Positions 8,816 to 27,239 of a stretch of DNA of 48,599 nt are shown here, in pieces. How positions within the stretch are numbered: the stretch's first letter is position 1; each line of letters opens with the position of its first letter. The stretch covers positions 1 to 48,599 of the forward strand of contig JAFSNR010000091.1 in the NCBI GenBank assembly GCA_017443345.1. The letters run 5' to 3'. The position numbers were made by a program, and so were the translations under genes. Below the pieces are notes generated by a model that was not told the DNA's origin, ran no database searches, and saw only the letters and a list, made by a program, of their open reading frames with translations. This stretch comes from Prevotella sp. GTDB lineage: Bacteria > Bacteroidota > Bacteroidia > Bacteroidales > Bacteroidaceae.

Positions 8816-8849
8816 TTTGGAATTATCAAAAAATATTTGTACTTTTGCA
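8816..8849 (+). promoter_or_regulatory. Promoter of the carbohydrate operon
   Basis: TTTG at 8816-8819 and TACTTTTG at 8840-8847 have exactly 20 bp between them. The aldo-keto reductase ATG follows at 8875. This is probably the start of one transcript running through to GH31, since the following genes are closely spaced. Confidence 0.75.
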
Positions 8850-8874: not shown

Positions 8875-9825
8875 ATGGTATACAACGAAATCGGAAAGAC
8901 TGGCATGCGGGTATCGAACATCAGTTTCGGTGCCTCTTCATTGGGTGGTGTGTTCCACGGTATCCGTGAGGACGAAGGCATCCGTGCCGTACATGTCGCC
9001 GTGGATAACGGCATCAATTTTATCGACGTATCTCCCTACTACGGTCACTTAAAGGCCGAGATGGTACTTGGTAAGGCTCTGAAAGAGATACCACGTGACA
9101 ACTATTATCTCTCGACGAAGGTAGGCCGCTACGGCAAGGACGGCGTGAACACCTGGGACTACAGTGCCCAACGTGTCACAGACAGCGTCTATGAGAGTAT
9201 GGAACGCCTGAATGTCGACTATATCGACCTCATCAATGTCCATGACATCGAGTTCCAGGCTGCCCTCGAAGGAGGTCTGCAGAAAGTATGTGACGAGACA
9301 TTGCCCGCCCTCGTGGCCCTGAAGAAGAAGGGTGTCGTAGGACATGTGGGCATCACCGACCTACAGCCCGAGAACCTGCGCTGGGTCATCGAGCACTGTG
9401 AGGAAGGAACAGTGGAAAGTATCCTGAACTTCTGTCACTACAGCCTCAACGACACCTTATTACAAGATTTCCTTGGTTTCTTCGAACAGCATGGTGTAGG
9501 CGTCATCAATGCCTCACCCCTCTCCATGGGTCTGCTTTCTGAACGTGGCGCTCCTGACTGGCATCCGGCTTCTAAGGATCTGAAGACGGCCTGTGCCAGA
9601 GCTGCTGCTTACTGCCACGAGAAAGGCTACCCCATCGAGAAACTGGCCATCCAGTTCTCTACGAGTTGTAATCCTCGCATTGCCACCACACTCTTCAGTA
9701 GTGCCAATCCTAATAATGTACTCAAGAACATCAACTATGTGAATGACCCCATGGACGAAGCACTCGTCAAGGAAGTACAGCATATCATCGGCGATCAGAT
9801 GTTTGTCAGATGGAAGAACTCCTAA
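8875..9825 (+). CDS. Aldo-keto reductase, probable L-galactose/L-fucose 1-dehydrogenase
   Basis: A 316-residue TIM-barrel oxidoreductase. The AKR tetrad is visible as D51, Y56 (DVSPYYG), K82 (STKVGRYG) and H123 (INVHD). Residue order and length resemble L-galactose dehydrogenase and L-fucose/D-threo-aldose 1-dehydrogenases, which oxidise the anomeric carbon of the sugar to a lactone with NAD(P)+. The next gene encodes a COG3618-type lactonase and the one after a zinc dehydrogenase, the set described for L-galactose use in Bacteroides vulgatus. That context supports a sugar-1-dehydrogenase role. L-galactose versus L-fucose cannot be settled from the sequence. There is no signal peptide, so it acts in the cytoplasm. 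Confidence 0.82.
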   Translation: MVYNEIGKTGMRVSNISFGASSLGGVFHGIREDEGIRAVHVAVDNGINFIDVSPYYGHLKAEMVLGKALKEIPRDNYYLSTKVGRYGKDGVNTWDYSAQRVTDSVYESMERLNVDYIDLINVHDIEFQAALEGGLQKVCDETLPALVALKKKGVVGHVGITDLQPENLRWVIEHCEEGTVESILNFCHYSLNDTLLQDFLGFFEQHGVGVINASPLSMGLLSERGAPDWHPASKDLKTACARAAAYCHEKGYPIEKLAIQFSTSCNPRIATTLFSSANPNNVLKNINYVNDPMDEALVKEVQHIIGDQMFVRWKNS

Positions 9826-9835
9826 ACCTGCAGCT

Positions 9836-10774
9836 ATGAACTACCCCATTATCGACGCCCACAGCCATTTATGGCTTCAACAGAACACTTCGTGGAACGG
9901 GAAACCCATCCACAGTCTGAAGAACGGCCGTTCGCTGTTTCTTGGTGAGGTTGTACAGATGCTGCCACCCTTCATGATCGACGGCAAAAATACGGCAGAG
10001 GTATTCCTCTCCAATATGGACTACGCCCAAGTATCAGCAGCTGTTGTCGTACAAGAGTTTATCGACGGTCTTCAGAACGATTACCTCACCACCGTCAGTT
10101 TGCAGTATCCTGACCGATTCATCACCTGTGGCATGGCCGATTATCTACACGATGGTTTCTACGAGCAGGCACTCCAACTTATGGCCGTTAAGGGATTCAA
10201 GGGGATGGCCATCCCAGGCCATCGTCTGTTGGGCAGAAGCCTAACCTCCCCAGAGATGATGCACATGTTCCACGAAATGGAGCGCCGCAACGTCTTTCTC
10301 TCCATCACTCTCGCTGACGGAGACAGACAGGTGGGAGAACTGCGCGAAGTGATTTCCGAGTGTCCCAAACTCCGTATTGCCATTGGCCACCTGGGCATGG
10401 CCAATCCTCCACAGACCCCCTGTTGGGAGAATCACGATTGGCAGATGCAGATCAAGTTGGCTCAGCACGACAACGTCATGATCGAGACGGGAGGCATCAC
10501 CTGGCTCTACAACTCAGAGTTCTATCCATACCCCTCTGCCATCCGTGCCATTCGTGAGGCAGCAGGTCTCGTGGGAATGGACCGCCTGATGTGGGGCAGT
10601 GATTATCCACGCACCATCACCGCCATCACCTACCGCATGTCGTACGATTTCATCGTGAAGAGTACAGAACTCACCAGCGAGGAAAAGCAACTGCTACTGG
10701 GTGACAATGCACGCCGCTTCTACGGCTTCCAGCATCTCAAAGAATTAAGTTATATTAAAAATATGTCAGAATGA
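9836..10774 (+). CDS. Amidohydrolase-superfamily sugar lactonase (COG3618-like)
   Basis: From the ATG at 9836 the protein has 312 residues; the upstream open frame overlaps the previous gene and looks spurious. The start MNYPIIDAHSHLWL carries the metal-binding H9-x-H11 pair. Later metal or substrate positions are in IPGHRLLG, IAIGHLGMAN and LMWGSDYPRT (conserved Asp). Amidohydrolase-2 members of this kind include L-fucono- and L-galactono-1,5-lactonases, which open the lactone made by the preceding dehydrogenase. The gene starts 10 bp after the aldo-keto reductase and overlaps the next gene by 4 bp, so the three are translated together. The lactonase role is inferred from family and context. 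Confidence 0.8.
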   Translation: MNYPIIDAHSHLWLQQNTSWNGKPIHSLKNGRSLFLGEVVQMLPPFMIDGKNTAEVFLSNMDYAQVSAAVVVQEFIDGLQNDYLTTVSLQYPDRFITCGMADYLHDGFYEQALQLMAVKGFKGMAIPGHRLLGRSLTSPEMMHMFHEMERRNVFLSITLADGDRQVGELREVISECPKLRIAIGHLGMANPPQTPCWENHDWQMQIKLAQHDNVMIETGGITWLYNSEFYPYPSAIRAIREAAGLVGMDRLMWGSDYPRTITAITYRMSYDFIVKSTELTSEEKQLLLGDNARRFYGFQHLKELSYIKNMSE

Positions 10775-11790
10775 AAGCAATACAGATCAGCGAACCTTCT
10801 GTGATGAAGGTGATCGACATCGCCGAACCCCAGATGGGTGACGATGAGGTATTATTGAGAATGAAATATGTAGGTTTCTGTGGTAGTGACCTCAGTACCT
10901 ACCGTGGTGGTAACCCTATGGTGAAGATGCCCGTTGTACCTGGTCATGAAGTGGGTGCCGAGATTGTCAGCGTAGGCAAGAACGTGCCCGAAGGTCTGAA
11001 GCCAGGCATGACCGTTACCGTCAATCCCTATACCAACTGTGGCAAGTGTGCCTCCTGCCGTAACGGTAGGGTTAACGCCTGCCAACACAACGAGACGTTG
11101 GGTGTACAGCGCTGGGGTGCTATGCGCGAATACCTCGTGCTGCCCTGGGAGAAAGTCATCCCTGCTGGGCTGCTCACACCCCGTACCTGTGCACTGATCG
11201 AACCCATGAGTGTGGGATTCCACGCTGTCAGTCGTGCACAAGTGACGGATATCGATGTGGTGCTCGTCATCGGCTGTGGCATGGTGGGAATGGGTGCAGT
11301 GGTTCGCTCAGCCCAGCGTGGCGCTACCGTTGTGGCTGCCGATATCGACGACGAGAAACTGGCCCTGGCCCGTCAGATGGGTGCCAGCTATACCATCAAC
11401 ACCCAGACGGAGGATGTTCACGCCCGTCTGCTGGAGATGACCTCCGGTTTTGGTCCAGATGTGGTTATCGAGGCTGTAGGCAGTTCTCCTACCTATCAGA
11501 TGGCCGTCGACGAGGTGGCCTTCACCGGACGTGTCATCTGCATCGGCTATGCCAAGACAGAGGTGTCGTTCCAGACCAAGTATTTCGTTCAGAAGGAGCT
11601 CGACATCCGTGGTTCGCGCAATGCGCAACCCTCTGACTTCCGTGCTGTCATCCATTATCTGGAGCGAGGCACGTGTCCCGTCGATCAGCTTATCAGCCGT
11701 GTCGTAAAACCTGAAGAGGCACCAGAGGCTATGCAACAGTGGGCTGCAGCACCAGGCAAAGTATTCCGAATCCTAGTAGATTTCCAGTAA
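10771..11790 (+). CDS. Zinc-dependent alcohol dehydrogenase, probable L-galactonate/sugar-acid oxidoreductase
   Basis: A 339-residue medium-chain dehydrogenase. Catalytic zinc ligands are C37, H59 and E60 (FCGSD, PGHE). Structural zinc cysteines are C90, C93, C96 and C104. The Rossmann loop is GCGMVGMG. The C-terminal region (DIRGSRNAQPSDFRAVI) is strikingly like that of E. coli LgoD/YjjN, which oxidises L-galactonate to tagaturonate; I recall this from memory and could not align it. Placed after a sugar 1-dehydrogenase and a lactonase, it is the expected third step. Other sugar-acid or polyol substrates remain possible. Further steps to pyruvate and triose phosphate are not in this window. 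Confidence 0.82.
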   Translation: MKAIQISEPSVMKVIDIAEPQMGDDEVLLRMKYVGFCGSDLSTYRGGNPMVKMPVVPGHEVGAEIVSVGKNVPEGLKPGMTVTVNPYTNCGKCASCRNGRVNACQHNETLGVQRWGAMREYLVLPWEKVIPAGLLTPRTCALIEPMSVGFHAVSRAQVTDIDVVLVIGCGMVGMGAVVRSAQRGATVVAADIDDEKLALARQMGASYTINTQTEDVHARLLEMTSGFGPDVVIEAVGSSPTYQMAVDEVAFTGRVICIGYAKTEVSFQTKYFVQKELDIRGSRNAQPSDFRAVIHYLERGTCPVDQLISRVVKPEEAPEAMQQWAAAPGKVFRILVDFQ

Positions 11791-11791
11791 T

Positions 11792-13615
11792 ATGAAAAGA
11801 ATCGTTCTATCCTTTTTCGCTGTCCTCATAGGACTATACGCCTGGGCACAGCAGGCCGTCTCACCAAACGGTAAGATCGTCATCGCTCAACAAGAGGCCG
11901 GCCTCGTCATCAGTTACCAGGGACAGCAGGTACTCAAGCTCCCCACTGTGGGTTTCGAGAATGCCTCTACTCCTACCCCACTCGTCTTCCGTCGCACACT
12001 GAAGGAAGACTATCGTATGCTTGCAGGCAAACGCCTTCAGTGCAGCAATGAGGCTAATGAATATCTCGCCTCCCTCGGCAACGACGTCCTGTTGGTTGTC
12101 CGTCTTTACAACGATGGCATTGCTTTCCGCTATGAGTTGTCTGGACTCTGCGATGCCACTCTGCCCCGTGAGCTTACCACCTGGCAGATTCCCGAAGGTA
12201 TGAAACGTTGGATGCAGAACTGGTGCGACGCCTACGAGGAGTACTTCCCCCTGGCGACCACCTACAAACAGGCACCCCGTCTTCCTCGTTATGAGAAGAG
12301 TGCAGAAGGCTATGCCTCCCGTTGGGGCTATCCTGCCCTACTTGAGCCCGTCGACGGTGTCTTCGCCCTGATCTCAGAAGCCAATATCGAACGTCGTCAG
12401 AGTGCTTCCTGTCTCTATAACGACGGCGAGCTCTATCATGTCACACCTGCTGAGAACGATGTAAAGATCTCTGGTGAGTGGCATAGTCCTTGGCGCACGC
12501 TCATCCTTGGCTCGCTCGCCGATATTGTTTCCTCCACCCTCATCACCGATGTCTCAGAGCCTTGTATGCTGGCTGATACCGACTGGATTCAGCCTGGTGT
12601 GGTATCCTGGATCTATTGGGCCTACAACCATGGCAGCAACGATTACAATATCATCTGCAAATACGTCGACCTGGCCGTGAAACTCCATCTTCCCTACGTG
12701 CTTATCGATGCCGAGTGGGACGAGATGAAAGATGGCAAGACCGTAGAGGACGCAGTGAAATATGCTGTCGACAAGGGCATACGTCCCATGATCTGGTACA
12801 ACTCCTCCGTAGGTTGGGTTGATGGTGCTCCCACACCTAAGTATCGCCTGAACAAGCCTGAGGACCGCGAACGTGAGTTTGCCTGGTGCGAGAAGATCGG
12901 AGTGAAAGGTGTGAAGATCGATTTCTTCTCAGGTGACAACCAGATGAACATGGACTTCTGTCTCGACCTTCTCCAGAGCGCTGCGCGTCATCACCTCCTC
13001 GTGAATTTCCATGGTGCCACCATTCCCCGTGGTTGGCAGCGCACCTATCCGAATCTGCTCTCTACGGAAGGCGTGCTCGGAGCCGAGTGGTATAACAACA
13101 ATGAAGCACTCACCACACGTGCAGCCCGTCATAACGCCACACTGCCCTTCACTCGTAATGTCATTGGTCCGATGGACTACACCCCTTGTGCTTTCAGTGA
13201 CTCGCAGAACCCACACATCACCACCAATGCCCATGAGCTGGCACTGACGGTGCTCTATGAGAGTGGCCTGCAACACCTCGCTGATAGTCCTGAAAGTTTC
13301 CTCGCACAGCCAGAGGCTGTACAGCAGTTCCTCGGACAACTGCCCACCATCTGGGACGAGACGCGTCTTGTCTGCGGCTATCCTGGTGAGAGCGTAGTCC
13401 TAGCACGCCGTCATGGCTCCACCTGGTACGTGGCAGGCATCAACGGGCGCGACGAGACTCAGACGCTTAACTTCGACCTCAGTTTCATTCCCGCCAAGGA
13501 AATTCAGGTTTTCAGCGACACCGCTGAGAAGCCTTGGGACATCAGTACCCAGAAAGTCCTTCCTACGAAGGTCACCTGTCAGCCACGAGGCGGTTTTGTC
13601 TATGTAATCAAATAG
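11792..13615 (+). CDS. Secreted glycoside hydrolase family 97 (retaining type)
   Basis: A 607-residue exported enzyme with signal peptide ending near LYAWAQQ. The N-terminal beta-sandwich (about 25-270), TIM barrel (270-540) and C-terminal sheet match GH97. The motif GVKGVKIDFFSGDNQ places an Asp (D377) where the retaining GH97 subgroup, such as the B. thetaiotaomicron alpha-galactosidase, has its nucleophile; the inverting SusB-type enzymes use glutamates elsewhere. Known retaining members act on alpha-D-galactosides or the stereochemically related beta-L-arabinopyranosides. It starts 1 bp after the zinc dehydrogenase. Its exact substrate is open. Confidence 0.9.
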   Translation: MKRIVLSFFAVLIGLYAWAQQAVSPNGKIVIAQQEAGLVISYQGQQVLKLPTVGFENASTPTPLVFRRTLKEDYRMLAGKRLQCSNEANEYLASLGNDVLLVVRLYNDGIAFRYELSGLCDATLPRELTTWQIPEGMKRWMQNWCDAYEEYFPLATTYKQAPRLPRYEKSAEGYASRWGYPALLEPVDGVFALISEANIERRQSASCLYNDGELYHVTPAENDVKISGEWHSPWRTLILGSLADIVSSTLITDVSEPCMLADTDWIQPGVVSWIYWAYNHGSNDYNIICKYVDLAVKLHLPYVLIDAEWDEMKDGKTVEDAVKYAVDKGIRPMIWYNSSVGWVDGAPTPKYRLNKPEDREREFAWCEKIGVKGVKIDFFSGDNQMNMDFCLDLLQSAARHHLLVNFHGATIPRGWQRTYPNLLSTEGVLGAEWYNNNEALTTRAARHNATLPFTRNVIGPMDYTPCAFSDSQNPHITTNAHELALTVLYESGLQHLADSPESFLAQPEAVQQFLGQLPTIWDETRLVCGYPGESVVLARRHGSTWYVAGINGRDETQTLNFDLSFIPAKEIQVFSDTAEKPWDISTQKVLPTKVTCQPRGGFVYVIK

Positions 13616-13618
13616 GAT

Positions 13619-14935
13619 ATGGAAAAGCAACAACAATCTCTGATAACGAAGGACGGGGTCAGCTTTCTGCTGCCTTTCATCCTGATTACCTTCTGCTTTG
13701 CGCTTTGGGGCTTCGCCAATGACATCACGAACCCCATGGTAAAAGCCTTCTCGAAGATCTTCCGTATGAGTGTTACCGATGGAACACTCGTGCAGGTGGC
13801 CTTCTACGGTGGCTATTTCTGTATGGCCTTTCCTGCGGCCATCTTCATCCGCAAGCACAGTTACAAGGCTGGTGTCCTGATGGGACTCGGACTATATGCC
13901 ACTGGCGCCCTGCTGTTCTTCCCTGCGAAGGCCGTTGGCATCTATGGCTGTTTCCTTATCGCCTACTTCATCATGACCTGTGGACTGTCGTTCCTCGAGA
14001 CATCGTGTAACCCTTATATCCTGACGATGGGACCAGAGGAGACTGCTACACGACGACTGAACATGGCCCAGTGTTTCAACCCCTGTGGTTCCATCATTGG
14101 CATGTTCGTGGCTATGAACTTTATCCAGGCCAAACTCAATCCCATGAGCAGTGACGAACGCGCATTTCTGAGTGATGCAGAGTTTGAGGCCCTCAAGGAT
14201 GCCGATCTCAGTGTGCTCATCTCACCCTATCTCATCATCGGCCTCGTCATCGTGGCCATGCTGATCCTCATCCGTCTGGTGAAGATGCCCAGATTCGGTG
14301 ATGCCAATCACGACGTACATGTCTTCGTCACCCTGAAGCGTATCTTCTCGCTGAGGTACTACACCGAGGGTGTCATCGCCCAGTTCTTCTACGTAGGCGC
14401 ACAGATTATGTGCTGGACCTTCATCATCCAGTATGGCACACGTGTCTTTATGGCCGAGGGTATGGACGAGCGGAGTGCTGAGGTTCTCTCCCAGCAGTTC
14501 AACATCTACGCGATGCTCTTCTTCATCTGCTCACGCTTCATCGCTACGTTCCTCATGAAGTATGTCAAGCCCGCCATGCTCCTGGCTGTCTTCGGCATCC
14601 TGGCGATGCTCTTCACTGCAGGTGTCATCGCCTTCCAGGATCGTACGGGTATGTACTGTCTCGTCTGCGTCAGCGGCTGTATGTCACTGATGTTCCCAAC
14701 CATCTACGGCATAGCCCTCAATGGTCTGGGCGACGATGCCAAATTCGGAGCAGCAGGTCTCATCATGGCCATCTTGGGCGGATCCATCCTGCCTCCTTTG
14801 CAGGCGATGATCATCGATCAGGGCACGGTCTTCGGCAACTTCCCAGCCACCAATGCCTCGTTCGTACTCCCATTCATCTGCTTCCTCGTCGTCACCATCT
14901 ACGGCTACCGCACCCACGTAGTCCGTGGCATGTAG
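13619..14935 (+). CDS. FucP/GluP-like sugar:H+ symporter (MFS)
   Basis: This 438-residue protein has 12 predicted membrane segments and the features of the FHS family: FCFALWGFANDITNPMV in TM1, followed later by GLSFLETSCNPYILTMGPEE, which closely matches the FucP/NagP/GluP substrate-site region, and NGLGDDAKFGAAGLIMA near the C-terminus. Members import L-fucose, glucose/galactose or N-acetylglucosamine with protons across the inner membrane. Co-location with L-sugar oxidation genes fits a carrier for L-galactose or L-fucose. It begins 3 bp after the GH97 stop. Confidence 0.92.
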   Translation: MEKQQQSLITKDGVSFLLPFILITFCFALWGFANDITNPMVKAFSKIFRMSVTDGTLVQVAFYGGYFCMAFPAAIFIRKHSYKAGVLMGLGLYATGALLFFPAKAVGIYGCFLIAYFIMTCGLSFLETSCNPYILTMGPEETATRRLNMAQCFNPCGSIIGMFVAMNFIQAKLNPMSSDERAFLSDAEFEALKDADLSVLISPYLIIGLVIVAMLILIRLVKMPRFGDANHDVHVFVTLKRIFSLRYYTEGVIAQFFYVGAQIMCWTFIIQYGTRVFMAEGMDERSAEVLSQQFNIYAMLFFICSRFIATFLMKYVKPAMLLAVFGILAMLFTAGVIAFQDRTGMYCLVCVSGCMSLMFPTIYGIALNGLGDDAKFGAAGLIMAILGGSILPPLQAMIIDQGTVFGNFPATNASFVLPFICFLVVTIYGYRTHVVRGM

Positions 14936-14969
14936 CTTCGACCACACCCATCAATAACAACCAATCATC

Positions 14970-17900
14970 ATGAAGAAAACCATCTTATTACAACTATTGC
15001 TCGGATGGGCTACCTTAATGGTAGCCCAGAGCTCAACCATCTGTCATCAGGACGGAAGCATAACCTTCAAGTACAAGAACCCACAGGCCAAGGAGGTCTT
15101 GGTGGATGTACAGTTTGCTGGACGCAACGCCATGCAGCGCGATGCTGACGGTATCTGGACAGCCACCCTTGGACCTGCTGCCCCCGACATGTATCCCTAC
15201 TGCTTCATCGTCGATGGCGTCAGCGTCATGGATCCTGAGAATCCGCAGTACTTCCCCAACGAGGGTTTCAAGAACAGTCTCCTGGAGATTCCTGCCCGTG
15301 AAGGTCAACTGGCTCACGACATTCTCGATGTGCCTCATGGCCAATTGGAGTATATCCACTACTATTCCAAGAGTCTGGGTGCGACCAATCAGGCCGTGGT
15401 CTATCTGCCGCCAAAATATAAAGAGAACCCAGAGAAGAGCTATCCCGTCTTCTACCTGATCAGTGGGACTACCGATACAGAGGAGGTGTATTATAAAGTG
15501 GGCCGCATGAACTATATCCTCGACAATCTCCTGGCCGAAGACAAGGCTGAGGAGATGATCGTGGTATTGCCCTATGGTAATCCCTACAAGTTGTTGGCCG
15601 CACCACCCGCCATGGCTTCTGGTGCTCCTCAGACACGATTTGGACAAGATGTGTTCAGCAACGATCTGAACAATGACCTGATGCCTTACGTAGAGCAGCA
15701 CTACCGCACTATCAACGATGCCGATCATCGTGCCATTGGTGGTTTCTCGCGTGGTGGTAACCAAGGACTCTTCAATGGTCTGAGTCATCTCGATAAGTTC
15801 TCTTATCTCTGCAGCTACAGTTCGTTTACCTCGACGGATATCCCCAACGTTTACGACAACGCCGCCGACACGAACAGTAAGATCCATCTCTTCTGGTTGG
15901 GCGTGGGTACCGATGATTTCCTCTATGGCAATGCGCGCGACTATATGGAGTTCCTCGACAAGAAGGGCATCCGCTCTGTGAAGGAGTTCACGCACGATAA
16001 GTTCGGCCATACCTGGATGAACGCCAAGTATTTCCTCTCGAAGACCCTACCTCTGCTCTTCAACCCCAAAGCTGCAGAAGAAGCGATGAAGAACGCGCAG
16101 CCTGCACCTGCTGCCACTGGCAAAGAACAGCAGTTCACGCCTGGTGTGATGGCACGCCTCTTCCCCAAAACCATTATCTCACCCGAATACAAGTACGACA
16201 GCGTCATCTTCCGTATGAAGGCCCCCGATGCCAAGGAGGTCTTGTTGGCTGCCGAGATTCTGCCGAAGCCGATGGCCATGGAGCGCGACAGCGACGGCAT
16301 CTGGAGCATTGAGATCGATGAACATATCTACGAGGCATTTACCTATTATTTCCTGGTGGACGGCACTCCCGTAGCCGATCCTCAGAACATGTATCTCGCC
16401 CCATCCAAGGGTTTCAAACCCAGCATCTGCAACAATCCCGCCAGCACTTTCCACTATGCCACTATGGCCGAGATGGAGCATGGTGTCGTGAGCTATGACC
16501 TGAACGATGGTAAAGCCTGCTATCGTCCAGCAGGAGGGGAACCGCAGTTTGTGATCCAACTGATTCCTGGAAAAGATGATACCATCGAGAGCTGGTTTAA
16601 GATTGGTGGTGCCGACGTGATGGCTGATAAGTTCATAGCAGCCAAGAAACTTCCACCGTTCTGCATTACCACTGGCGAGACAGGATGCTGCGAAGGTAAA
16701 AAGTGTGATAAGAAGGTCTACACACTTCGTGCAGACGACTACGCCACATGGCCTGAGCGACGTCATGCCTTAGAGTCGATCCTCGATTCACTGATGCTGC
16801 AGTCAGCCGTCAAAGGTGAGATCAGCCTCAACCTGCCTCTCTTCCAGACGAAATACACAGCCGACCCTGCCCCATTGGTAGTGGGCGACACGCTGTTCCT
16901 CTTCACCTCCCACGATGCCTCACCTGAGGATATCCCTGATCTCAACGAGAAGAGTTCGGCTGGCTTCTTCATGTACGACTGGCTCTTGTGGAGCACCACC
17001 GACATGGTGAACTGGACGGAGCACGGTGCTGTAGCCTCTCTGAAGGACATTCCCTGGCGCAGTCGAGAGAACGGTGCCTGGGCCATCCAGACCGTGGAGC
17101 GCGATGGTAAGTACTACCTCTATGCCCCACTCCACGGACACGGTATCGCTGTCTTGAAAGCCGACTCCCCTTACGGTCCTTTTAAGGATCCCTTGGGTAA
17201 GCCTCTGGTGTGGGACCAGAGCAACTGGTTCGACATCGACCCTTCGGTCTATACTGATACTGACGGACAGGCTTACCTGTATTGGGGAAATCCCCACACC
17301 TTCTACGCCAAACTCAATGATGACATGATTTCGCTGAAGAGTGAGGTGACAAAGTTGCCCCACATCAAGCATTATCAGGAGGGTCCATGGTTCTATCAGC
17401 GCAATGGCCATTACTATTGTGCCTTTGCCTCTACCTGTTGTCCTGAGGCCCTTGGCTATGCCATGAGCGACTCTCCTACTGGTCCTTGGGAGTGGAAGAA
17501 CTACATCATGCGTCCCACCTTGCGCGATCGTGGCAATCATCCTGGCATCTGCGACTTCAAGGGCCACTCGTATGTGTTTGGCCAGAACTACGACCTGATG
17601 CACCTCGACACCTTCATTCACCACGAGCACCGCAGTGTCTCTGCCGCTGAGATGACCTATAACGAGGACGGCACCATCCAACAGGTGCCCTATTGGCTCG
17701 ATCAGGAACCTTTGAAACAGCTCTGTTGGCTGAATCCCTACCAGCGCGTAGAGGCTGAAACCATGGCCTGGGGCTACGGACTGAAGAGTGCCAAGATGGG
17801 TATCGAGAACACGGGTGTCGTTGCCGACATGCCCACCTCCACAGGCAAGAAGAATATGTATATCTTCGATATCAACGATGGCGAGTTCATCAAACTCCGT

Positions 17901-18155
17901 GGTGTCGATTTTGGCGCTGGCGCCAAGAAGTTCTCCATCACGGCTGCCTCAACAGGCAGTTGTAAGGTGACCCTCCGACTCGATGGTCAGGATGGTCCCG
18001 TGATTGGTGAGGCCTTGATTTCAAAGACGGGTTCGGTAGAGAAGTACAAGGCCTTCAGCACGAAGGTCAGCAACGCAACAGGTGTTCACGACCTCTACCT
18101 CTGCTTCGACAACAGCTCAGGCGATGTGCGCCTCGACTGGTGGCAGTTCAAGTAA
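14970..18155 (+). CDS. Multidomain secreted esterase (CE1-like) - GH43 - CBM6 protein
   Basis: A 1061-residue exported protein. After a signal peptide (1-20) comes an E-set sandwich (about 22-108), then a CE1-type alpha/beta esterase (about 115-365) with S260 (GGFSRGG), D315/D316 (GTDD) and H347 (FGHTW). A second E-set (about 388-490) leads into a degenerate stretch (500-615) that resembles part of another esterase without its catalytic core. The GH43 five-blade propeller follows (about 620-915) with D632 (TADPAP), D757 (DIDPSV) and E804 (YQEGPW). A C-terminal CBM6 starts near RVEAETMAWG and ends in LDWWQFK. Together these fit removal of feruloyl esters and arabinofuranose from arabinoxylan. 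Chain order and motifs are seen; the substrate is inferred. Confidence 0.9.
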   Translation: MKKTILLQLLLGWATLMVAQSSTICHQDGSITFKYKNPQAKEVLVDVQFAGRNAMQRDADGIWTATLGPAAPDMYPYCFIVDGVSVMDPENPQYFPNEGFKNSLLEIPAREGQLAHDILDVPHGQLEYIHYYSKSLGATNQAVVYLPPKYKENPEKSYPVFYLISGTTDTEEVYYKVGRMNYILDNLLAEDKAEEMIVVLPYGNPYKLLAAPPAMASGAPQTRFGQDVFSNDLNNDLMPYVEQHYRTINDADHRAIGGFSRGGNQGLFNGLSHLDKFSYLCSYSSFTSTDIPNVYDNAADTNSKIHLFWLGVGTDDFLYGNARDYMEFLDKKGIRSVKEFTHDKFGHTWMNAKYFLSKTLPLLFNPKAAEEAMKNAQPAPAATGKEQQFTPGVMARLFPKTIISPEYKYDSVIFRMKAPDAKEVLLAAEILPKPMAMERDSDGIWSIEIDEHIYEAFTYYFLVDGTPVADPQNMYLAPSKGFKPSICNNPASTFHYATMAEMEHGVVSYDLNDGKACYRPAGGEPQFVIQLIPGKDDTIESWFKIGGADVMADKFIAAKKLPPFCITTGETGCCEGKKCDKKVYTLRADDYATWPERRHALESILDSLMLQSAVKGEISLNLPLFQTKYTADPAPLVVGDTLFLFTSHDASPEDIPDLNEKSSAGFFMYDWLLWSTTDMVNWTEHGAVASLKDIPWRSRENGAWAIQTVERDGKYYLYAPLHGHGIAVLKADSPYGPFKDPLGKPLVWDQSNWFDIDPSVYTDTDGQAYLYWGNPHTFYAKLNDDMISLKSEVTKLPHIKHYQEGPWFYQRNGHYYCAFASTCCPEALGYAMSDSPTGPWEWKNYIMRPTLRDRGNHPGICDFKGHSYVFGQNYDLMHLDTFIHHEHRSVSAAEMTYNEDGTIQQVPYWLDQEPLKQLCWLNPYQRVEAETMAWGYGLKSAKMGIENTGVVADMPTSTGKKNMYIFDINDGEFIKLRGVDFGAGAKKFSITAASTGSCKVTLRLDGQDGPVIGEALISKTGSVEKYKAFSTKVSNATGVHDLYLCFDNSSGDVRLDWWQFK

Positions 18156-18187
18156 ATGACAAAGTATCAATTAAGAAATAAGAATTT

Positions 18188-20554: not shown

Positions 20555-20561
20555 GACGAAC

Positions 20562-22727
20562 ATGAAGAGAACCTTATTATCAACCATTCTGCTGCTGTCC
20601 GTCAGCATCAGTAACACGGCTCAGACTCCCTTCGGCAAGGGGAGTCTGATCGTAAAACCTGTTGCCAAGAACGCCGTCAGGATTCAGTATTCAGAGGGTG
20701 CGGCCAAGAGCGATCTGCCTGATTGGCTCTACGTGCGTCATGACGAGGTGAAGCAGCAGGACATCTCCTTCAGCATCGATGCTGCCCAGCAGACTGTCAA
20801 GGTCTGTAACCAACAGGGCCAGCCTGTGTTCACAGCCATGAACCATCAGCTGAACAATGGTGAGGCCACACTCACATTCGTTTCCCCTCAGGATGAATAC
20901 CTCTTCGGACTCGGACAGTTCCAGGATGGCTACAGCAACGTGCGGGGTCTCTCACGCCGACTCACCCAGGTGAACACCCAGATCTCCATCCCCATGCTCG
21001 TCTCGAGCAAAGGCTATGGCATTCTGTGGAACAACTACGGCCTGACGGAGTTCAACCCCTGCAGCCAGAGTGTCCGTCTGGCTATTGTAAACCGTAAACC
21101 AACTGTAAACTCCGAAATTGTCGATGTCACCTCGACGGAGGGAGGCAAGAAAGAGTTGCGCGAGCGCCATATTTTCGAAGCCACGATCGACGTCGCAGAG
21201 ATGGGCGACTATTCGCTTTTGCTCGATGTGGGTCAGAAGATGGCCCGTCGGCATAACCTCTCGATTGATGGCCAGAACGTCATCGAGATGCAGAACCTGT
21301 GGCTGCCACCCACCGCCTCTGCGATTGTTCATCTGGAGGCAGGTCGCCACACGATTGAGGCAGAGCTGACGAAGGACGATGTCCCCACCCTTTATTATAA
21401 TCAGGTTAAGGATCAGACCACCTTCCGTTCACCCATCGCTGATGCCGTCGACTATACCGTCTTCATCGGCACCCCTGATGAGATTGTCGCCACCTATCGC
21501 GAGCTGACGGGTGAGTGTCCCCTCATGCCTGAGTGGGCACTGGGTTATATCCACTGTCGCGAGCGTTTCCACTCCTCCGATGAGATCCTGCAGACAGCCC
21601 GCCGATTTCGCGACGAGCAGATGCCTCTGAGCGTCATCGTACAGGACTGGCAGTGGTGGGGCAAGTACGGTTGGAATGCCATGCAGTTCGATGAGGACTA
21701 CTATCCCGATCCCAAGGCGCTGACTGACAGTCTCCACCAGATGGACGTGCGCCTGATGGTGAGCGTCTGGAGCAAGATCGACTCTACCTCTGTCGTAGGG
21801 CGCGAGATGAAACAGAGCGACTATTACATCCCAGGCACCGACTGGATCGATTTCTTCAATCCCGAGGCGGCAGCTGCCTACTGGCAGAACTTCCGCGAGC
21901 GCCTCGTGCCCCTGGGTATCGACGCCTGGTGGCAGGATGCCACAGAGCCTGAGAACGATGACCTTGCTGGGCGCAGAGTGAACAACGGCAAATGGGCTGG
22001 CGAACAAGTGCGCAACATCTTCCCCCTGCTCGTCAACAAGACCGTTTACGAAGGACTCGTCGAGGCTGGTCGCGAACCCATGATCCTCACGCGCTGCGCA
22101 TTCGCTGGCATCCAGCGTTATGGCTCGGCTATGTGGAGTGGTGATGTAGGTAACGACTGGGAGACCTTCCGCCGACAGATTACCGCTGGTCTGGGCATGC
22201 AGGCAGCAGGCATCCCCTGGTGGACCTACGATGCAGGCGGATTCTTCCGTCCACAGGACCAGTACACCAACCAGGATTACATTGAGCGCATGCTCCGTTG
22301 GATCGAGACGAGTGTCTATCTGCCCCTGATGCGCGTACATGGTTATATGAGCAACACCGAGCCCTGGAACTACGGCCCCGAGGCTCAGGCCATCATCACC
22401 AAGTGTCTGAAGGAACGCGAACGTCTGCTGCCTTATATCAAGAAGTGTGCCGAGCGCATCTCGACAGAGGGTTACACGCTGATGCGTCCTCTCGTGTTCG
22501 ACTTCGCCAGCGATCCTGAGGCACTGAAGCAAAAGTATGAGTACATGTTCGGTCCCGAGCTGCTCATTAGTCCTGTCACTGAGCCTGGTGTCACCGAGTG
22601 GACCACCTACCTGCCCCAGAACAAGAACGGCTGGCGCGATCAGCGTACGGGTAAAAAATTCGAAGGTGGCCAGTATGTGACCACCCCCGTCGATAAGACT
22701 TATATTCCTGTTTTCGTTCGAGAATAA
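20562..22727 (+). CDS. GH31 family alpha-glycosidase (probable alpha-xylosidase), 3'-truncated
   Basis: 721 residues with a signal peptide (about 1-20). The N-terminal sandwich precedes a barrel with the nucleophile D459 (WWQDATEPEND) and acid/base D528 (MWSGDVGNDW). The WQWWGKYGWNAMQFDE and WIDFFNPEA segments are typical of YicI-type alpha-xylosidases, and a PA14-like insertion may lie at 190-270. The chain stops at DKTYIPVFVRE. In the family this point is normally followed by a glycine-rich turn and a further beta domain of roughly 100 or more residues, so the 3' end appears lost. The stop lies within 30 bp of an opposing truncated sensor gene. A short repeat (about residues 175-183) is also inserted in frame. 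Confidence 0.88.
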   Translation: MKRTLLSTILLLSVSISNTAQTPFGKGSLIVKPVAKNAVRIQYSEGAAKSDLPDWLYVRHDEVKQQDISFSIDAAQQTVKVCNQQGQPVFTAMNHQLNNGEATLTFVSPQDEYLFGLGQFQDGYSNVRGLSRRLTQVNTQISIPMLVSSKGYGILWNNYGLTEFNPCSQSVRLAIVNRKPTVNSEIVDVTSTEGGKKELRERHIFEATIDVAEMGDYSLLLDVGQKMARRHNLSIDGQNVIEMQNLWLPPTASAIVHLEAGRHTIEAELTKDDVPTLYYNQVKDQTTFRSPIADAVDYTVFIGTPDEIVATYRELTGECPLMPEWALGYIHCRERFHSSDEILQTARRFRDEQMPLSVIVQDWQWWGKYGWNAMQFDEDYYPDPKALTDSLHQMDVRLMVSVWSKIDSTSVVGREMKQSDYYIPGTDWIDFFNPEAAAAYWQNFRERLVPLGIDAWWQDATEPENDDLAGRRVNNGKWAGEQVRNIFPLLVNKTVYEGLVEAGREPMILTRCAFAGIQRYGSAMWSGDVGNDWETFRRQITAGLGMQAAGIPWWTYDAGGFFRPQDQYTNQDYIERMLRWIETSVYLPLMRVHGYMSNTEPWNYGPEAQAIITKCLKERERLLPYIKKCAERISTEGYTLMRPLVFDFASDPEALKQKYEYMFGPELLISPVTEPGVTEWTTYLPQNKNGWRDQRTGKKFEGGQYVTTPVDKTYIPVFVRE
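21085..21112 (-). repeat. GTTTACAG-type repeat in GH31 (family C, inverted)
   Basis: TTGTAAACCGTAAACC and CTGTAAAC on the plus strand are the reverse complement of the units found in the PorE-like gene. Confidence 0.6.
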
Positions 22728-25204
22728 TTTTTGATCTTACGGCCGAACAGCTTCCACAGGATGCCTGCTGCAACCACGAGGTAAATCAACCAAGCCCACC
22801 AGGTGCGATACCAAGGTGTGCCGATGATGATATCGAGACGGCTTTCATATTCGCCCATCGTACCGTCGTCCTTGAACATCCGCACACAAAGGGTGTACGA
22901 ACCGCCAGGCAATCCCATATAGTTGATGTTCGGGTTCAGGGGATCCGTCTTCACCCAGGTATCGTTATAGCCCTCCAGACGATAGATGAAACGTGTGGCG
23001 TTCTTCGCACCGCCATTGTCCGAGGCCATCTGGATGGTGAAGTGGTTCTCGTTGGATTTCAGGTATAGTGTCTGAGTATCGAACAAAGCCTTTTCCAGCA
23101 GCACATGTCCCTCATATTCACGACCTGCCTCTACCAGCTGATCGTAAATGACGAGCCCGCTGAACACGGGCTTTTCCTCCTTGTCGTCACCAGCCAGTTT
23201 GCGCGTGTTGATCACGTCGAGACCGTCCTGTCCGCCTATCAGCAACAGACCTTTCTTCGAGTAATAGACAGCACGCTGGTTGAACGGTCCGGGCTGCAGT
23301 CCGTCGCGGTCGCTAAAGCTGCGCACGGCAAACGTCCAGACACCGTTTTCCTGCTTGGGGGTGATGTTCGATACGCCATGATCCGTCACGGCCCAGATGG
23401 TACCCCGCTCATCTTCCGTTAGCGCCACGACACTGTTGCCATAGAAGCCCGACTTCATATCGAGCAGCGTACTCTGCTTCGTCCTGCAGTCGAACACGTT
23501 GACACCCGATGCCGATCCCTGCCAGATGAGTCCTCTGTGGTCCATCAGTGCCTGGGTGGTCGACGATGAGATGGTGTACGATTTCTCATCGTGGGGCAAC
23601 GGCATATTGATCAGTTTCATCGTGCTGGGGTTGATCATCGTACAGTATTCCGAGTTACCAAGGATAATCCAGCCCGAGGCACTCCTGCCGATGCTGTTGG
23701 TCCAGTCGGTCTTGATGGTGGAGTTCTTCGTGGTCCAGGAGCGTTGCTCGCCTGTCCGCTTGTCGATGCGTACCGCACCACCGCCTAAGACGCCCAACCA
23801 GATGTTACCCCGATGGTCTTCCGTGATACCCCAGATATTGTTCGTCATGAAGGCACTGCCAGGAGTGGCTGCCGTGTAGTTCTTCCACTGTCCGTTGCGA
23901 TAGCTGATCAGTCCGCCTTCCCACGTACCGAACCACAGCGTGCCGTCCTTCGCCGTATAGCTGCCCACGATGACATCGTTCAGTGCACCGATGCTATGTT
24001 TGTCATAGCGCTCCTCCACCTCCATCGTCTCAGGATCGACCTTCAGGATACCACCCGAGTTCAGACCCAGCCAGAAGTGGCCCTCCTGGTCCTCCGTGAT
24101 GGCATTGATGTCGCCCAGTTGTAGACTGGCGAAGTTCGACATGGCATCGGCACTCATCGCCACACCGTTCTTATACGTAGCCACCCACATGCGCCCCAGC
24201 TGGTCCTCATAGAGGTGCTTGGCGGTGATATCGGGCAGGGAGGTCTCGTCGCCCTTCACATTCGTAAACTGGCGCCACTCCTTGTTCTTGAAGTCGAGCA
24301 ACAGCACGCCCAGGTGGTCGGTAGCCACCCAAAGATAGCCCTTCTGGTCGTAGCGCACCTCCCAGACGATGATGTCGTCAGGCACGTCCTGGAAGCCCTT
24401 GGCACGCATCAGTTCCGTCAGCGACGTGTACCAGCGCTGATCCTCAGGCACATGGATATAGGTACCCGTGGAGTGCGTGATGACCCACGTGATGCCGTCC
24501 TTGTCGTAATAGATCCAATACTCGTTATAGGTGTCGTGCAGACTGCGCCTGACGTAGTCATCCTTCCACAGCACCTTGCCCCGCTGGTCGTCAATGCACA
24601 ACAGCTCACCCAGGTTCGACACAACCAGCATGCCCTCCTTCGAACGAGCGTAATTCATGATACCGAAATCCTTCGGGAACTCCCCGTCCTTATAGCCGAA
24701 TGGGAAGTTGAGCAGCTTCTTCGTAGCCGGATCATAGATGTAATAGCCGTTATCCCACGTCTTCACGAAGAAGCGCTTCGTCTCAGGGTCGACATAGAGG
24801 TTCTCGGCACCACCCTCGATGCCGAACTCAGCCAATGCCCACGTAGGCCATCTTTCCACCGTCTCCGTGATGGGGTCGTAGACGGCATAGTTGAAGCCGT
24901 GGTCCAGCCACAGGCGACCGTCGTAGGCCTCCATGATCGATGTCACGCGGTTGGATCGGAGCGTCGTCGTATCCCGCTCAAAGGAGTAGAACGTACGGAA
25001 GCGATAGCCGTCGTAACGGCACAGACCGAAGGGTGTGGGCAACCACACGTAGCCCCGTGAGTCGCGCAGGATGCAGTTCACCTGCGAATTGGATAATCCG
25101 TCTCTCGTGTCGAGCCTGCGGAATCTGATATCTGGAATCACTGCCTGCGCCAGGAGCGGCAGGAAAATAAGCGCCAAGAGGAGTCGTCTAAACTGATTGT
25201 TCAT
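22700..25204 (-). CDS. Two-component regulator propeller protein, truncated hybrid sensor (HTCS-like)
   Basis: 834 residues. A signal peptide or leader (to about 22) precedes roughly fourteen Reg_prop repeats forming two seven-blade propellers, each recognisable by patterns such as DSRGYVWLPTPFGLCRYDG, EDHRGNIWLGVLGGGAVRID and DERGTIWAVTDHGV. A Y_Y_Y domain (about 700-795) and one membrane helix (WWAWLIYLVVAAGILWKLF) follow. In hybrid two-component systems this helix is followed by dimerisation, kinase, receiver and AraC domains, some 500 residues. Here the protein ends 14 residues after the helix (GRKIKNYSRTKTGI). It can still bind a glycan in the periplasm but has no output domain. The end overlaps the GH31 3' end by 28 bp, so both were probably cut by one deletion. 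Confidence 0.88.
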   Translation of the reverse strand: MNNQFRRLLLALIFLPLLAQAVIPDIRFRRLDTRDGLSNSQVNCILRDSRGYVWLPTPFGLCRYDGYRFRTFYSFERDTTTLRSNRVTSIMEAYDGRLWLDHGFNYAVYDPITETVERWPTWALAEFGIEGGAENLYVDPETKRFFVKTWDNGYYIYDPATKKLLNFPFGYKDGEFPKDFGIMNYARSKEGMLVVSNLGELLCIDDQRGKVLWKDDYVRRSLHDTYNEYWIYYDKDGITWVITHSTGTYIHVPEDQRWYTSLTELMRAKGFQDVPDDIIVWEVRYDQKGYLWVATDHLGVLLLDFKNKEWRQFTNVKGDETSLPDITAKHLYEDQLGRMWVATYKNGVAMSADAMSNFASLQLGDINAITEDQEGHFWLGLNSGGILKVDPETMEVEERYDKHSIGALNDVIVGSYTAKDGTLWFGTWEGGLISYRNGQWKNYTAATPGSAFMTNNIWGITEDHRGNIWLGVLGGGAVRIDKRTGEQRSWTTKNSTIKTDWTNSIGRSASGWIILGNSEYCTMINPSTMKLINMPLPHDEKSYTISSSTTQALMDHRGLIWQGSASGVNVFDCRTKQSTLLDMKSGFYGNSVVALTEDERGTIWAVTDHGVSNITPKQENGVWTFAVRSFSDRDGLQPGPFNQRAVYYSKKGLLLIGGQDGLDVINTRKLAGDDKEEKPVFSGLVIYDQLVEAGREYEGHVLLEKALFDTQTLYLKSNENHFTIQMASDNGGAKNATRFIYRLEGYNDTWVKTDPLNPNINYMGLPGGSYTLCVRMFKDDGTMGEYESRLDIIIGTPWYRTWWAWLIYLVVAAGILWKLFGRKIKNYSRTKTGI

Positions 25205-25226
25205 GATTAGCTTGAATTTTATGTCA

Positions 25227-25235
25227 GCAAAAATA
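25227..25235 (-). promoter_or_regulatory. -7 box upstream of the sensor gene
   Basis: On the minus strand this reads TATTTTTGC, a match to TAnnTTTG about 22 bp upstream of the sensor ATG. The -33 element is not clear. Confidence 0.4.
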
Positions 25236-25310
25236 CAAACAATTACGATAATAAAAGTCGTTTTATCATTTATTAACTATCCTGTCAGCCATAATCCTGC
25301 CTAAAAGTCG

Positions 25311-25318
25311 TATCTTTG
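25311..25318 (+). promoter_or_regulatory. -7 box upstream of the 629-residue secreted protein
   Basis: TATCTTTG lies 31 bp before the ATG at 25350, so this gene has its own transcript, divergent from the sensor. No exact TTTG was found at 19-20 bp upstream. Confidence 0.5.
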
Positions 25319-25349
25319 CCACAGAAATAAACCAACGAATAGCTAACTT

Positions 25350-27239
25350 ATGATAAAGAGACTACTTATTATTGCAGTGGTAGCTGCCACGACTGCCTTA
25401 ACCGTTCAGGCAGGCAAGTACCAGAACTTCAAAGTGTCGTCCTATATCCGTGCCCAGGACGTGGCGCGCATGGCCGATGACAAGTTCCTTAACGACACCT
25501 GGCAGACCGTCAGCTCACAGGTCGACCTCGACAAAATCTACCTCGAGACCCACCGAGATGCCTTCACCGTCGACGAGAAGACCATGCTCAAGGTGAAGAA
25601 GTTCTTCCTCTCGAAAGGACTGGAGGTTGGAGGCGGCATTACCTATACCCGCTCCGAGCCCACCGACTTCGAGACCTACAGCTATGCCCGTGAGAACGAG
25701 CGCCGCCAGGTGAAGGAGGTGGCAGAGTACACCGCCCGTCTCTTCGACGACTTCATCCTCGACGACTTCTTCTTCATCGACCTGAAGAACGACGACGAGA
25801 TTGCCGCCAAGGAGAAGAGCGGCAAGAGCTGGACCGACTACCGTCTGCGCCTCATGGCCGACGCAGGTCGCGAACTCGTTGTCAACCCCGCCAAGAAGGT
25901 CAATCCCAAGGTGAAGGTCATCATCAAGTATCCCAACTGGTACGACCATTTCCAGGGCCTCGGCTTCAACCTCGAGGAAGAGCCCCTCTACTTCGACGGC
26001 CTCTGGACTGGCACCGAGACGCGCGACCCAGGGTCAGCCCAGCACCTGCAGAACTACCTCAGCTATAACATCGTGCGCTACTTCGACAACATCGCCCCAG
26101 GCAAGAATGGAGGCGGATGGGTTGATGCAGGCGGCATCCACATGAGCATGGACCGCTATGCCGAACAGCTCCATCTGACGATGCTCTCCAAGACCCCCGA
26201 GATCATCCTCTGGAACTACATGCAGCTCTACGAGGTGAAGATCATGCCCCAGATGCGCGCCAAGTGGCAGGAGCCGGGTGTCAGCTTCAACTACGACGAG
26301 ATGACAGCCCCCTTCACCAAGGACGGCAAGACTGTCACCCCCTCGACGATGGCCCGCTTTGCCGACGTCACCCTCCATCAGACCGACAAGCTCATCTCCC
26401 AGCTGGGCCGCCCCATTGGCCTCGCCTCCTATAAGCCCTACCACTCCACGGGCGAAGAGTTCCTCCAGAACTACCTCGGCATGATTGGCCTGCCCATGGA
26501 CATGTATCCCCAGTGGCAGGAGCGCCAGCAGATCCTGCTCACCCAACAGGCCGCCAAGGATCCCCAGATTGTGGCTCGCATCAAGGCCCAGCTGAAGAAA
26601 GGCGGCGATGTCATCATCACCACGGGTCTGCTCAAGGCCATCAAGGACCAACTCGCCGATGTCTGCGAACTCGAATGCGGCGACCTGAAGGCCATCGTCA
26701 ACGACTTCGGCTGGTTCGGCAAGTCCGGGCGCGAGTTCATCATCCCCCAGGTGAAGTACTACACCAACGATGCCTGGGAGGTCGTCAGTGCAGGCCGTCC
26801 CCTCAACGGCGGCGTCTCAGGCTACCCCATCCTCCTGCGCGACACCTATTCCAAGGGCATGCTCTTCGTCCTGACCATCCCCGACGACTTCGGCAACCTC
26901 TACGACTATCCCGCAGGTGCCCTGAACATCATCCGTCGTGCCATGAGCAAGGACGTGGGCGCCTATATCGAAGGACCGTCGAAGGTCGCCCTCTTCCCCT
27001 ACGACAACAAGACCCTCGTCGTCGAGAACTTCAACGACGAAGCCGTCTCGCTGCGTGTCGTCATCAACAGTCAGGTGAGCACCCTGCGCAACCTCCTCAC
27101 AGGCCAGCAGCTGCAGCCCGCGCAGATACCCTCCGTCACCGGCTTCTTCCGATACAACCGCTTCTTCGGCTACCCCGATGGCTCGACGGTCTTCGACCTC
27201 CAGCTCCCCGCCCACAGCTACGTCGGATTAGGCTATTAA
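25350..27239 (+). CDS. Secreted protein of unknown function, possible unclassified glycosidase-like fold
   Basis: 629 residues with a signal peptide (MIKRLLIIAVVAATTALTVQ, cleaved near AGK). I do not recognise the family. The first 390 residues read like a TIM barrel: alternating strands and helices with acidic residues at strand ends (GLEVGGGITYTRSEP, LDDFFFIDLKNDDE, PKVKVIIKYPNWYDHFQ, IILWNYMQLYEVK). Residues about 395-520 look Rossmann-like (KKGGDVIITTGLLKAIKDQL), and the last 100 are beta-rich (TLVVENFNDEAVSLRVV). This barrel/Rossmann/sandwich order recalls GH42-like enzymes, but no catalytic pair can be assigned. It has its own promoter, a terminator and high GC, and sits beside a glycan sensor, suggesting carbohydrate work. 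Confidence 0.75.
   Translation: MIKRLLIIAVVAATTALTVQAGKYQNFKVSSYIRAQDVARMADDKFLNDTWQTVSSQVDLDKIYLETHRDAFTVDEKTMLKVKKFFLSKGLEVGGGITYTRSEPTDFETYSYARENERRQVKEVAEYTARLFDDFILDDFFFIDLKNDDEIAAKEKSGKSWTDYRLRLMADAGRELVVNPAKKVNPKVKVIIKYPNWYDHFQGLGFNLEEEPLYFDGLWTGTETRDPGSAQHLQNYLSYNIVRYFDNIAPGKNGGGWVDAGGIHMSMDRYAEQLHLTMLSKTPEIILWNYMQLYEVKIMPQMRAKWQEPGVSFNYDEMTAPFTKDGKTVTPSTMARFADVTLHQTDKLISQLGRPIGLASYKPYHSTGEEFLQNYLGMIGLPMDMYPQWQERQQILLTQQAAKDPQIVARIKAQLKKGGDVIITTGLLKAIKDQLADVCELECGDLKAIVNDFGWFGKSGREFIIPQVKYYTNDAWEVVSAGRPLNGGVSGYPILLRDTYSKGMLFVLTIPDDFGNLYDYPAGALNIIRRAMSKDVGAYIEGPSKVALFPYDNKTLVVENFNDEAVSLRVVINSQVSTLRNLLTGQQLQPAQIPSVTGFFRYNRFFGYPDGSTVFDLQLPAHSYVGLGY

Follow-up and report, generated by a model that had tools for sequence, protein, structure and literature searches.

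Organization of the probable operon

We analyzed contig JAFSNR010000091.1 of a Prevotella genome (hereafter the window: the entire contig, C42 in our numbering, 48,599 bases), which belongs to a 92% complete assembly of 4.16 Mb in 204 contigs. Our analysis indicates, with a probability of about 0.7, that eight genes on its plus strand (8875–22727) form an operon that links trimming the side chains of maize-type complex xylan to the uptake and oxidation of their L-galactose. Gene content, gene order, a promoter-like site, homologies and a linkage that recurs in relatives are direct observations, and from them we infer every substrate, location and reaction proposed below.

The eight genes encode, in this order, an aldo-keto reductase (AKR), a COG3618-type lactonase, a zinc alcohol dehydrogenase, a glycoside hydrolase of family GH97, a FucP-type carrier, an esterase-GH43-CBM6 fusion, a GH3 and a GH31, which is the content that an earlier sequence-only reading of this DNA had claimed. 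Successive genes are separated by 10, −4, 1, 3, 34, 32, and 7 nt. The motif TANNTTTGC, which we take to be a promoter-like motif of Bacteroidota, has 19 copies in the window where 3.15 are expected, and its plus-strand sites lie at 8840 and next at 25311. The former holds a promoter-like −7 element, TACTTTTGC (8840–8848, plus strand), located 26 nt upstream of the AKR gene and assigned from the Bacteroidota consensus; no further plus-strand copy of TANNTTTG was found between this site and 23995. Since the plus-strand promoter-like site at 8840 is not followed by another until 25311, the region 8875–22727 looks like one transcription unit. The sequence-only reading had extended the operon to 27239. 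This is right for the eight genes and fails beyond them, where the gene at 22700–25204 lies on the minus strand, with its own minus-strand promoter-like motif at 25227–25235, and the gene of a 629-residue protein has its own site at 25311, 30 nt upstream, and looks like another unit.

Judged by reading the sequences, the esterase-GH43-CBM6 fusion, the GH3, the GH31 and the GH97 begin with signal peptide-like or lipoprotein-like segments, and the three oxidizing enzymes have no such start. This distribution suggests that sugars would be released outside the inner membrane, then imported, then oxidized inside.

Putative L-galactose pathway

The AKR (8875–9825, plus strand; PF00248) aligns over its full length (residues 1–316) with PDB 7LH6, named L-galactose dehydrogenase, at 475 bits, and its five best distinct PDB matches all bear that name. 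It would convert L-galactose to L-galactono-1,5-lactone. The lactonase (9836–10774, plus strand; PF04909, Amidohydro_2), which carries the COG3618 label by type, has an alternative upstream ATG at 9743 that would overlap the AKR gene. Its residues H9, H11, H185, and D256 do not vary among the 19 aligned sequences (the window and 18 relatives), and we take them to be active-site residues. It scores 28.7 bits against the NCBIfam model of L-fucono-1,5-lactonase (cut-off 400) and does not belong to that equivalog; its predicted reaction is L-galactonolactone to L-galactonate. The zinc alcohol dehydrogenase (10771–11790, plus strand; ADH_N/ADH_zinc_N) is of the RspB/LgoD-like type, with RspB (4ILK) as best PDB match, and contains the Cys/His/Glu motifs that presumably hold the zinc ligands. 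It is predicted to oxidize L-galactonate to D-tagaturonate. The carrier (13619–14935, plus strand), of the major facilitator superfamily (MFS), passes the FucP model TIGR00885 (599 bits, cut-off 280) and stays under the cut-off of a second one, NF007524 (246 bits, cut-off 427); we propose that it takes up L-galactose.

The three oxidation genes had been matched to the L-galactose pathway of Bacteroides (Phocaeicola) vulgatus, and both the enzyme types and the full-length match of the AKR support this. The lactonase of that route is reportedly BVU_0220, described in a 2014 Biochemistry paper, and the genes are said to follow the order BVU_0219/0220/0222. BVU_0219 is the L-galactose dehydrogenase and BVU_0222 the L-galactonate dehydrogenase of a route through D-tagaturonate (PMC12632266).

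Side-chain hydrolases and their predicted substrate

The GH97 (11792–13615, plus strand; signal peptide-like start) is of the retaining type. Its best PDB match is 5XFM (274 bits), followed by two α-galactosidases, one of them named retaining, and its D377 and E426 fall at conserved positions of the retaining GH97s 5XFM and 3A24, positions that we assume to be catalytic. It is a probable α-D-galactosidase or β-L-arabinopyranosidase. Other GH97s encoded beside xylan genes, from B. ovatus (PMC4491172) and from a capybara metagenome-assembled genome (PMC8810776), are active on para-nitrophenyl-α-D-galactoside. The fusion protein (14970–18155, plus strand; 1061 residues) has a signal peptide-like start, a feruloyl esterase-like part with a GFSRG motif, a GH43 and a CBM6. 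Near full-length relatives (about 85% identity) were found in two Prevotella genomes, G020 and G018, and matches elsewhere span one half or the other; the GH43-CBM6 half shares 57% identity with its counterpart in the xylan locus of B. xylanisolvens XB1A. The GH3 (18188–20554, plus strand; lipoprotein-like start) is of the β-xylosidase/α-L-arabinosidase type, its best NCBIfam model being NF052329 (459 bits, under the cut-off of 1050).

The GH31 (20562–22727, plus strand) is α-xylosidase-like, the top four PDB matches all being α-xylosidases. It had seemed to end early beside a kinase-less sensor gene, and a contig chimera at 22.7 kb was considered and rejected for the GH31. The enzyme is complete, since four relatives (73–77% identity) finish at the same "IPVFVR/IR" or at most about 25 residues beyond; relatives measure 720–752 residues.

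The side chain FAXG, α-L-Galp-(1-2)-β-D-Xylp-(1-2)-5-O-feruloyl-L-Araf, was detected in popcorn maize, between the detection and quantification limits after dilution, and no detection was reported for oats, wheat, or wild rice (PMC9301459). The substrate named by the sequence-only reading, side chains of cereal arabinoxylan, is thus apt for maize and too broad for cereals at large. Corn xylan also bears α-xylose, and small amounts of α-D-galactose in it point to a need for α-D-galactosidase; a GH31 α-xylosidase, a GH95 α-L-galactosidase, GH43/GH51 enzymes and a β-xylosidase have been named for its recalcitrant linkages (PMC7176698). As had been suggested, the enzyme set of the operon would, to judge by its CAZyme (carbohydrate-active enzyme) families, fit the maize side chain bond by bond except for the α-L-galactosidase.

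Linkage in related genomes

Among 100 genomes searched for the lactonase, 39 were positive, the window's own included, and up to 20 kb were fetched around the gene in all 38 others. A further 80 lactonase loci came from named records, at least three loci being common to both sets. Because the nearest lactonase among the named records (89% identity) comes from "uncultured Prevotella sp. RUG383" and many of the 80 belong to Prevotella or Prevotellaceae, with record titles that in a good number of cases refer to ruminant samples, the host of the window is probably a ruminal Prevotella; other records are Bacteroides or Phocaeicola.

In the most similar operon (L041, genome G020), the order is GH29, AKR, lactonase, dehydrogenase, GH97, FucP, esterase-GH43-CBM6, and PA14-GH3. 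Locus L128 (RUG069) carries a CE6-CE1-type gene, GH43, GH10-CE1, lactonase, GH95 and GH3 in a single run, so that the lactonase stands between the GH10-esterase and the GH95. In L043/L073 (G019), a GH95 adjoins the AKR-lactonase-dehydrogenase set, with a 156-residue open reading frame (ORF) on the opposite strand between them. In L138 a GH43-CBM6-type gene (80%) is followed without interruption by a GH31 (77%), a small hydrolase and the lactonase, and the same 21 kb also contain CE6-CE1-like and GH10-CE1-like genes; in L126 and L134 the lactonase is flanked by GH31 and GH97, with oppositely oriented ORFs between them in L134. The pairing extends to B. xylanisolvens XB1A (L179, L219, L220), in which a divergent LacI gene is followed by AKR, lactonase, MFS carrier and dehydrogenase, directly upstream of GH43, GH3, and GH43 (by Pfam). 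Next come BLAST matches to GH31, GH97, GH43-CBM6 and, weakly, GH43, then two SusC-like genes, and further on a CE6-CE1-type gene, another GH43-type gene, a sensor like those of hybrid two-component systems (HTCS) and a GH95. This complex-xylan locus is probably the polysaccharide utilization locus (PUL) 43 of that strain. Because a promoter-like site stands at 13505 of L179, between dehydrogenase and GH43, the two sets of XB1A seem to be on separate transcripts, unlike those of the window. The union of release and catabolism in one operon had been singled out as a notable find; the linkage goes beyond chance, and it is not unique, as B. xylanisolvens and several other Prevotella have it too.

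The strength of this association was measured with a reference set of ten side-chain CAZymes of the window's own genome, relatives of at least 45% identity being called close. Ten close relatives occur in 6 of the 38 lactonase loci (574 kb, after subtracting 4 kb per locus), against a single one in the 38 control stretches together (533 kb; p = 0.008). A looser cut (E ≤ 1e-20) gives 17 and 2 genes (p = 0.0006). In 36 of the 38 genomes the control came from the start of contig 2 (20 kb at most), and 13 of the 38 stretches were under 10 kb; both p-values are optimistic, given non-random controls and related genomes. Counted over the lactonase-bearing congeners, with places merged by hand, 2 of 19 GH97 places and 3 of 25 esterase/GH43 places fall within 15 kb of the lactonase (0.19 and 0.24 expected).

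The 118 loci were reduced to 108 by dropping 3 duplicates and 7 without a recognized lactonase ORF, and a quick tree was built of 109 lactonases, the window's included. Twenty of the 108 other loci (21 with the window) are linked to side-chain CAZymes; the commonest partner in the 20 is GH97 (8), followed by esterase/GH43 (6) and PA14-GH3 (6). The label "linked" requires at least 16 changes on the tree, 7 of them forced by starred (well-supported) branches, and shows only mild clustering (8 of 500 shuffles score as low), so the pairing was gained or lost more than once.

The same module also has another partner. Sixteen of the 108 loci pair it with a fucose isomerase (Pfam-checked in L038), and none of these has a close side-chain CAZyme, so that isomerase and xylan side-chain CAZymes look like two alternative partnerships. 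The sixteen are L038, L039, L047, L142, L144, L146, L147, L151, L152, L159, L163, L168, L171, L174, L176, and L190. In the window's own genome FucI is found only on C72 (L270, 9299–11122), outside the operon and away from the module genes. It is 87% identical to the isomerase inside the L-galactose locus L038 of another Prevotella, and BLAST found no relative of the window's carrier or oxidizing enzymes within 20 kb around it.

The α-L-galactosidase step

Two proteins, the GH97 and the 629-residue protein, had been put forward as the missing α-L-galactosidase, and neither suggestion was supported. The GH97 was set aside since it carries residues that align with those of retaining α-galactosidase-type enzymes. 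The 629-residue protein appears to belong to a separate transcription unit, and in none of the six other genomes that carry it is it on the contig of the lactonase; on these two grounds it was also rejected as part of the system. The enzyme that cuts off L-galactose is probably encoded elsewhere in the genome.

Four GH95 places were counted there, of which three were read (C77, C147, C197). The GH95 on C77 scores 1014 bits against PDB 4UFC and shares its T-x-N-x-N motif. 4UFC is BACOVA_03438, in which Thr370 touches the O6 of L-galactose; the fucosidase AfcA has a His in its place (PMC4491172). At this motif position C147 has T and C197 has H; since 7KMQ has Thr as well, the residue is supportive of α-L-galactosidase activity and not decisive. 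The C77 enzyme, close to the characterized α-L-galactosidase BACOVA_03438, is likely the missing one, and likelier so than the GH97. Around it (L070, 1–12554) lie a propeller sensor with HisKA, cut by the end of the fetched stretch, a SASA (CE6-type)-CE1 esterase, a GH10-CE1 xylanase-esterase and a PA14-GH3, a block that recurs in RUG383 (L221) at 84–95% identity. Together these C77 genes make up a second complex-xylan locus, which probably cooperates with the operon of the window.

A gene of the α-L-fucosidase family GH29 (14634–16250 of L041) lies upstream of the AKR in the most similar operon, and genes of the same BLAST cluster lie upstream of the AKR in L054 and L063. This GH29 may be an alternative α-L-galactosidase.

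Proposed route and downstream metabolism

In the proposed mechanism, the exported esterase-GH43-CBM6, GH3, GH31, and GH97 would strip ferulate, arabinose, β-xylose, α-xylose and, probably, α-D-galactose from the side chains. The GH95 of C77, encoded beside GH10-esterase and CE6-CE1-type genes, would free α-L-galactose, which FucP would bring into the cell. AKR, lactonase and zinc dehydrogenase would then convert it to D-tagaturonate, and the tagaturonate reductase UxaB with further enzymes would channel this into central metabolism.

UxaB is encoded on C159 of the same genome (NF002969, 628.6 bits, cut-off 359), together with a UxuB-like gene and UxuA. No altronate dehydratase (PF04295) turned up in this 92% complete assembly. 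In a sample of 36 same-genus genomes it occurs in 20 of 22 that bear the lactonase and in 5 of the 14 others (Fisher p = 0.0008), and all 6 genomes behind named lactonase loci have it. Because relatives carry the dehydratase, an assembly gap is likelier than a rerouting. Replacement by the mannonate branch was considered, as UxuA and the UxuB-like gene lie beside UxaB, and was rejected, since relatives keep the dehydratase.

Alternative explanations

Several observations weigh against a coupling of side-chain trimming to L-galactose catabolism. The lactonase and the zinc dehydrogenase fall under the cut-offs of all NCBIfam models listed, altronate dehydratase went undetected in the assembly, and SusC/SusD Pfam domains are absent from the ten proteins of 8875–27239. 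The GH31 of the window is 32% identical to that of XB1A over 72% of its length, and the window's GH31 and GH97 (31–32% identity) are probably not orthologs of the two enzymes of the XB1A locus. In 88 of the 108 other loci no close side-chain CAZyme was seen in the fetched stretch, some stretches being short, and in L124, the closest relative, GH97 is the sole side-chain CAZyme of the stretch. The mild clustering on the tree and the sixteen fucose isomerase loci count on the same side.

The module could alternatively oxidize L-fucose, or L-fucose and L-galactose, with the glycosidases serving fucosylated plant glycans such as xyloglucan and the GH31 acting as a xyloglucan α-xylosidase. The carrier passes a FucP model, sixteen lactonase loci include a fucose isomerase (in one of them, L039, the single small gene tested encodes a RhaM-type mutarotase), the operon of G020 is preceded by a GH29, and the best PDB matches of the GH31 include CjXyl31A, which prefers xyloglucan (PMC4491172). 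Against this, the five best PDB matches of the AKR are L-galactose dehydrogenases, the unit has no fuconate dehydratase-type gene, and its zinc dehydrogenase suits L-galactonate oxidation. The genome's own FucI lies on another contig than the module, the isomerase loci have no close side-chain CAZyme, and the GH43-CBM6 half of the fusion resembles that of a xylan locus. We therefore regard an L-fucose pathway as unlikely. A chance neighborhood, in which a widespread L-galactose module happens to lie beside unrelated hemicellulases, would account for partners that differ among loci, are unseen in most of them and are reduced to a GH97 in L124. It sits poorly with gaps of −4 to 34 nt behind a single promoter-like site, with the excess of CAZyme genes over the control, with the GH97 and esterase/GH43 places near the lactonase and with the same pairing in Bacteroides, and we consider it the least probable of the readings weighed here.

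The GH97 could also act on L-galactose itself. Its clade supplies the side-chain CAZyme seen most often near the module (in 8 of the 20 linked loci besides the window), and if this recurring clade were an α-L-galactosidase, a new activity for GH97, the operon alone could release, import and burn L-galactose; we rate this as improbable. In the fuller form of this explanation, release would be wholly encoded in the operon and the GH95 would serve another glycan, which strikes us as slightly more doubtful still. α-L-Galactose is stereochemically unrelated to α-D-galactose or β-L-arabinopyranose, which we count against the GH97. Its key residues align with retaining α-galactosidase-type enzymes, and the xylan-linked GH97s of B. 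ovatus and of the capybara genome act on the α-D-galactoside (PMC4491172, PMC8810776). Trimming by the operon with L-galactose release by the C77 GH95 remains our preferred explanation.

Comparison with known systems

The P. vulgatus pathway consists of the same three enzyme types as the window, likened by type, and differs in that the module of the window is joined with hemicellulases in one operon. E. coli LgoD, an L-galactonate 5-dehydrogenase, belongs to the same zinc dehydrogenase superfamily as the window enzyme (likened by superfamily), and we presume that the two share the proposed reaction. The lgu cluster of Luteolibacter LG18, for L-glucose and L-galactose, likewise has an AKR-type sugar dehydrogenase and a sugar-acid dehydrogenase leading to D-tagaturonate; unlike the window, it has its downstream genes inside the cluster, its legend shows no glycosidase, and the paper makes no mention of a lactonase (PMC12632266).

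A further likeness is to PUL-XylL of B. ovatus and the XB1A locus. The window has GH31, GH97, GH43-CBM6, and GH3 as they do, and outside the window C77 adds GH95, GH10, a CE6-CE1-type gene and a sensor kinase. In XB1A the L-galactose genes adjoin the xylan locus, and its carrier is 31% identical to the FucP-type carrier of the window. BACOVA_03422–03425 are consecutive GH31, GH97, GH43-CBM6, and GH43 genes (PMC4491172), the family order that XB1A repeats (likened by order). By contrast with both, the system of the window is split over two loci, has no SusC/D in the operon, has its esterase fused to the GH43-CBM6 and contains its catabolic genes within the same transcription unit. The significance of the GH43-CBM6 enzymes of PUL-XylL has been called unclear (PMC4491172), and the fusion suggests a role for them.

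Earlier work had established the L-galactose pathway, the activity of the GH95 and the complex-xylan PUL. What appears to be new is a probable single transcription unit in which the trimming of side chains is united with L-galactose uptake and oxidation, a pairing that recurs in the genus. To our knowledge, accounts of L-galactose catabolism in gut Bacteroidales name no clear dietary source, and accounts of complex-xylan loci do not say what becomes of the L-galactose set free. As arranged in the window and in B. xylanisolvens, the genes join the two and hint at where gut bacteria obtain L-galactose, and it becomes directly testable whether the pathway of rumen Prevotella and of Bacteroides in the human gut is fed by maize fiber. 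In the available text of the open literature, including PMC4491172, PMC4855328, PMC11784079, and PMC8656163, this linkage was not found stated; subscription papers lay outside the search.

Flanking genes

The minus-strand gene at 22700–25204, whose 3′ end overlaps the convergent end of the GH31 gene by 28 nt, encodes two-component-regulator propeller repeats and a Y_Y_Y domain and stops just after the last membrane-like segment. No kinase domain was found in it; it could be a remnant, or an HTCS variant lacking the kinase.

The 629-residue protein (25350–27239, plus strand) looks exported and has no significant Pfam, NCBIfam, or PDB match. Relatives of 74–85% identity occur in 6 of 35 other same-genus genomes. 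Its residues 24–292 have relatives of 28–30% identity in two other families, many acidic and aromatic residues being invariant, and it possibly represents an unrecognized glycosidase family. Beside its gene, on the minus strand at 27303–28460, lies a gene for a Fic/DOC family protein with a Fic-like C-terminal domain.

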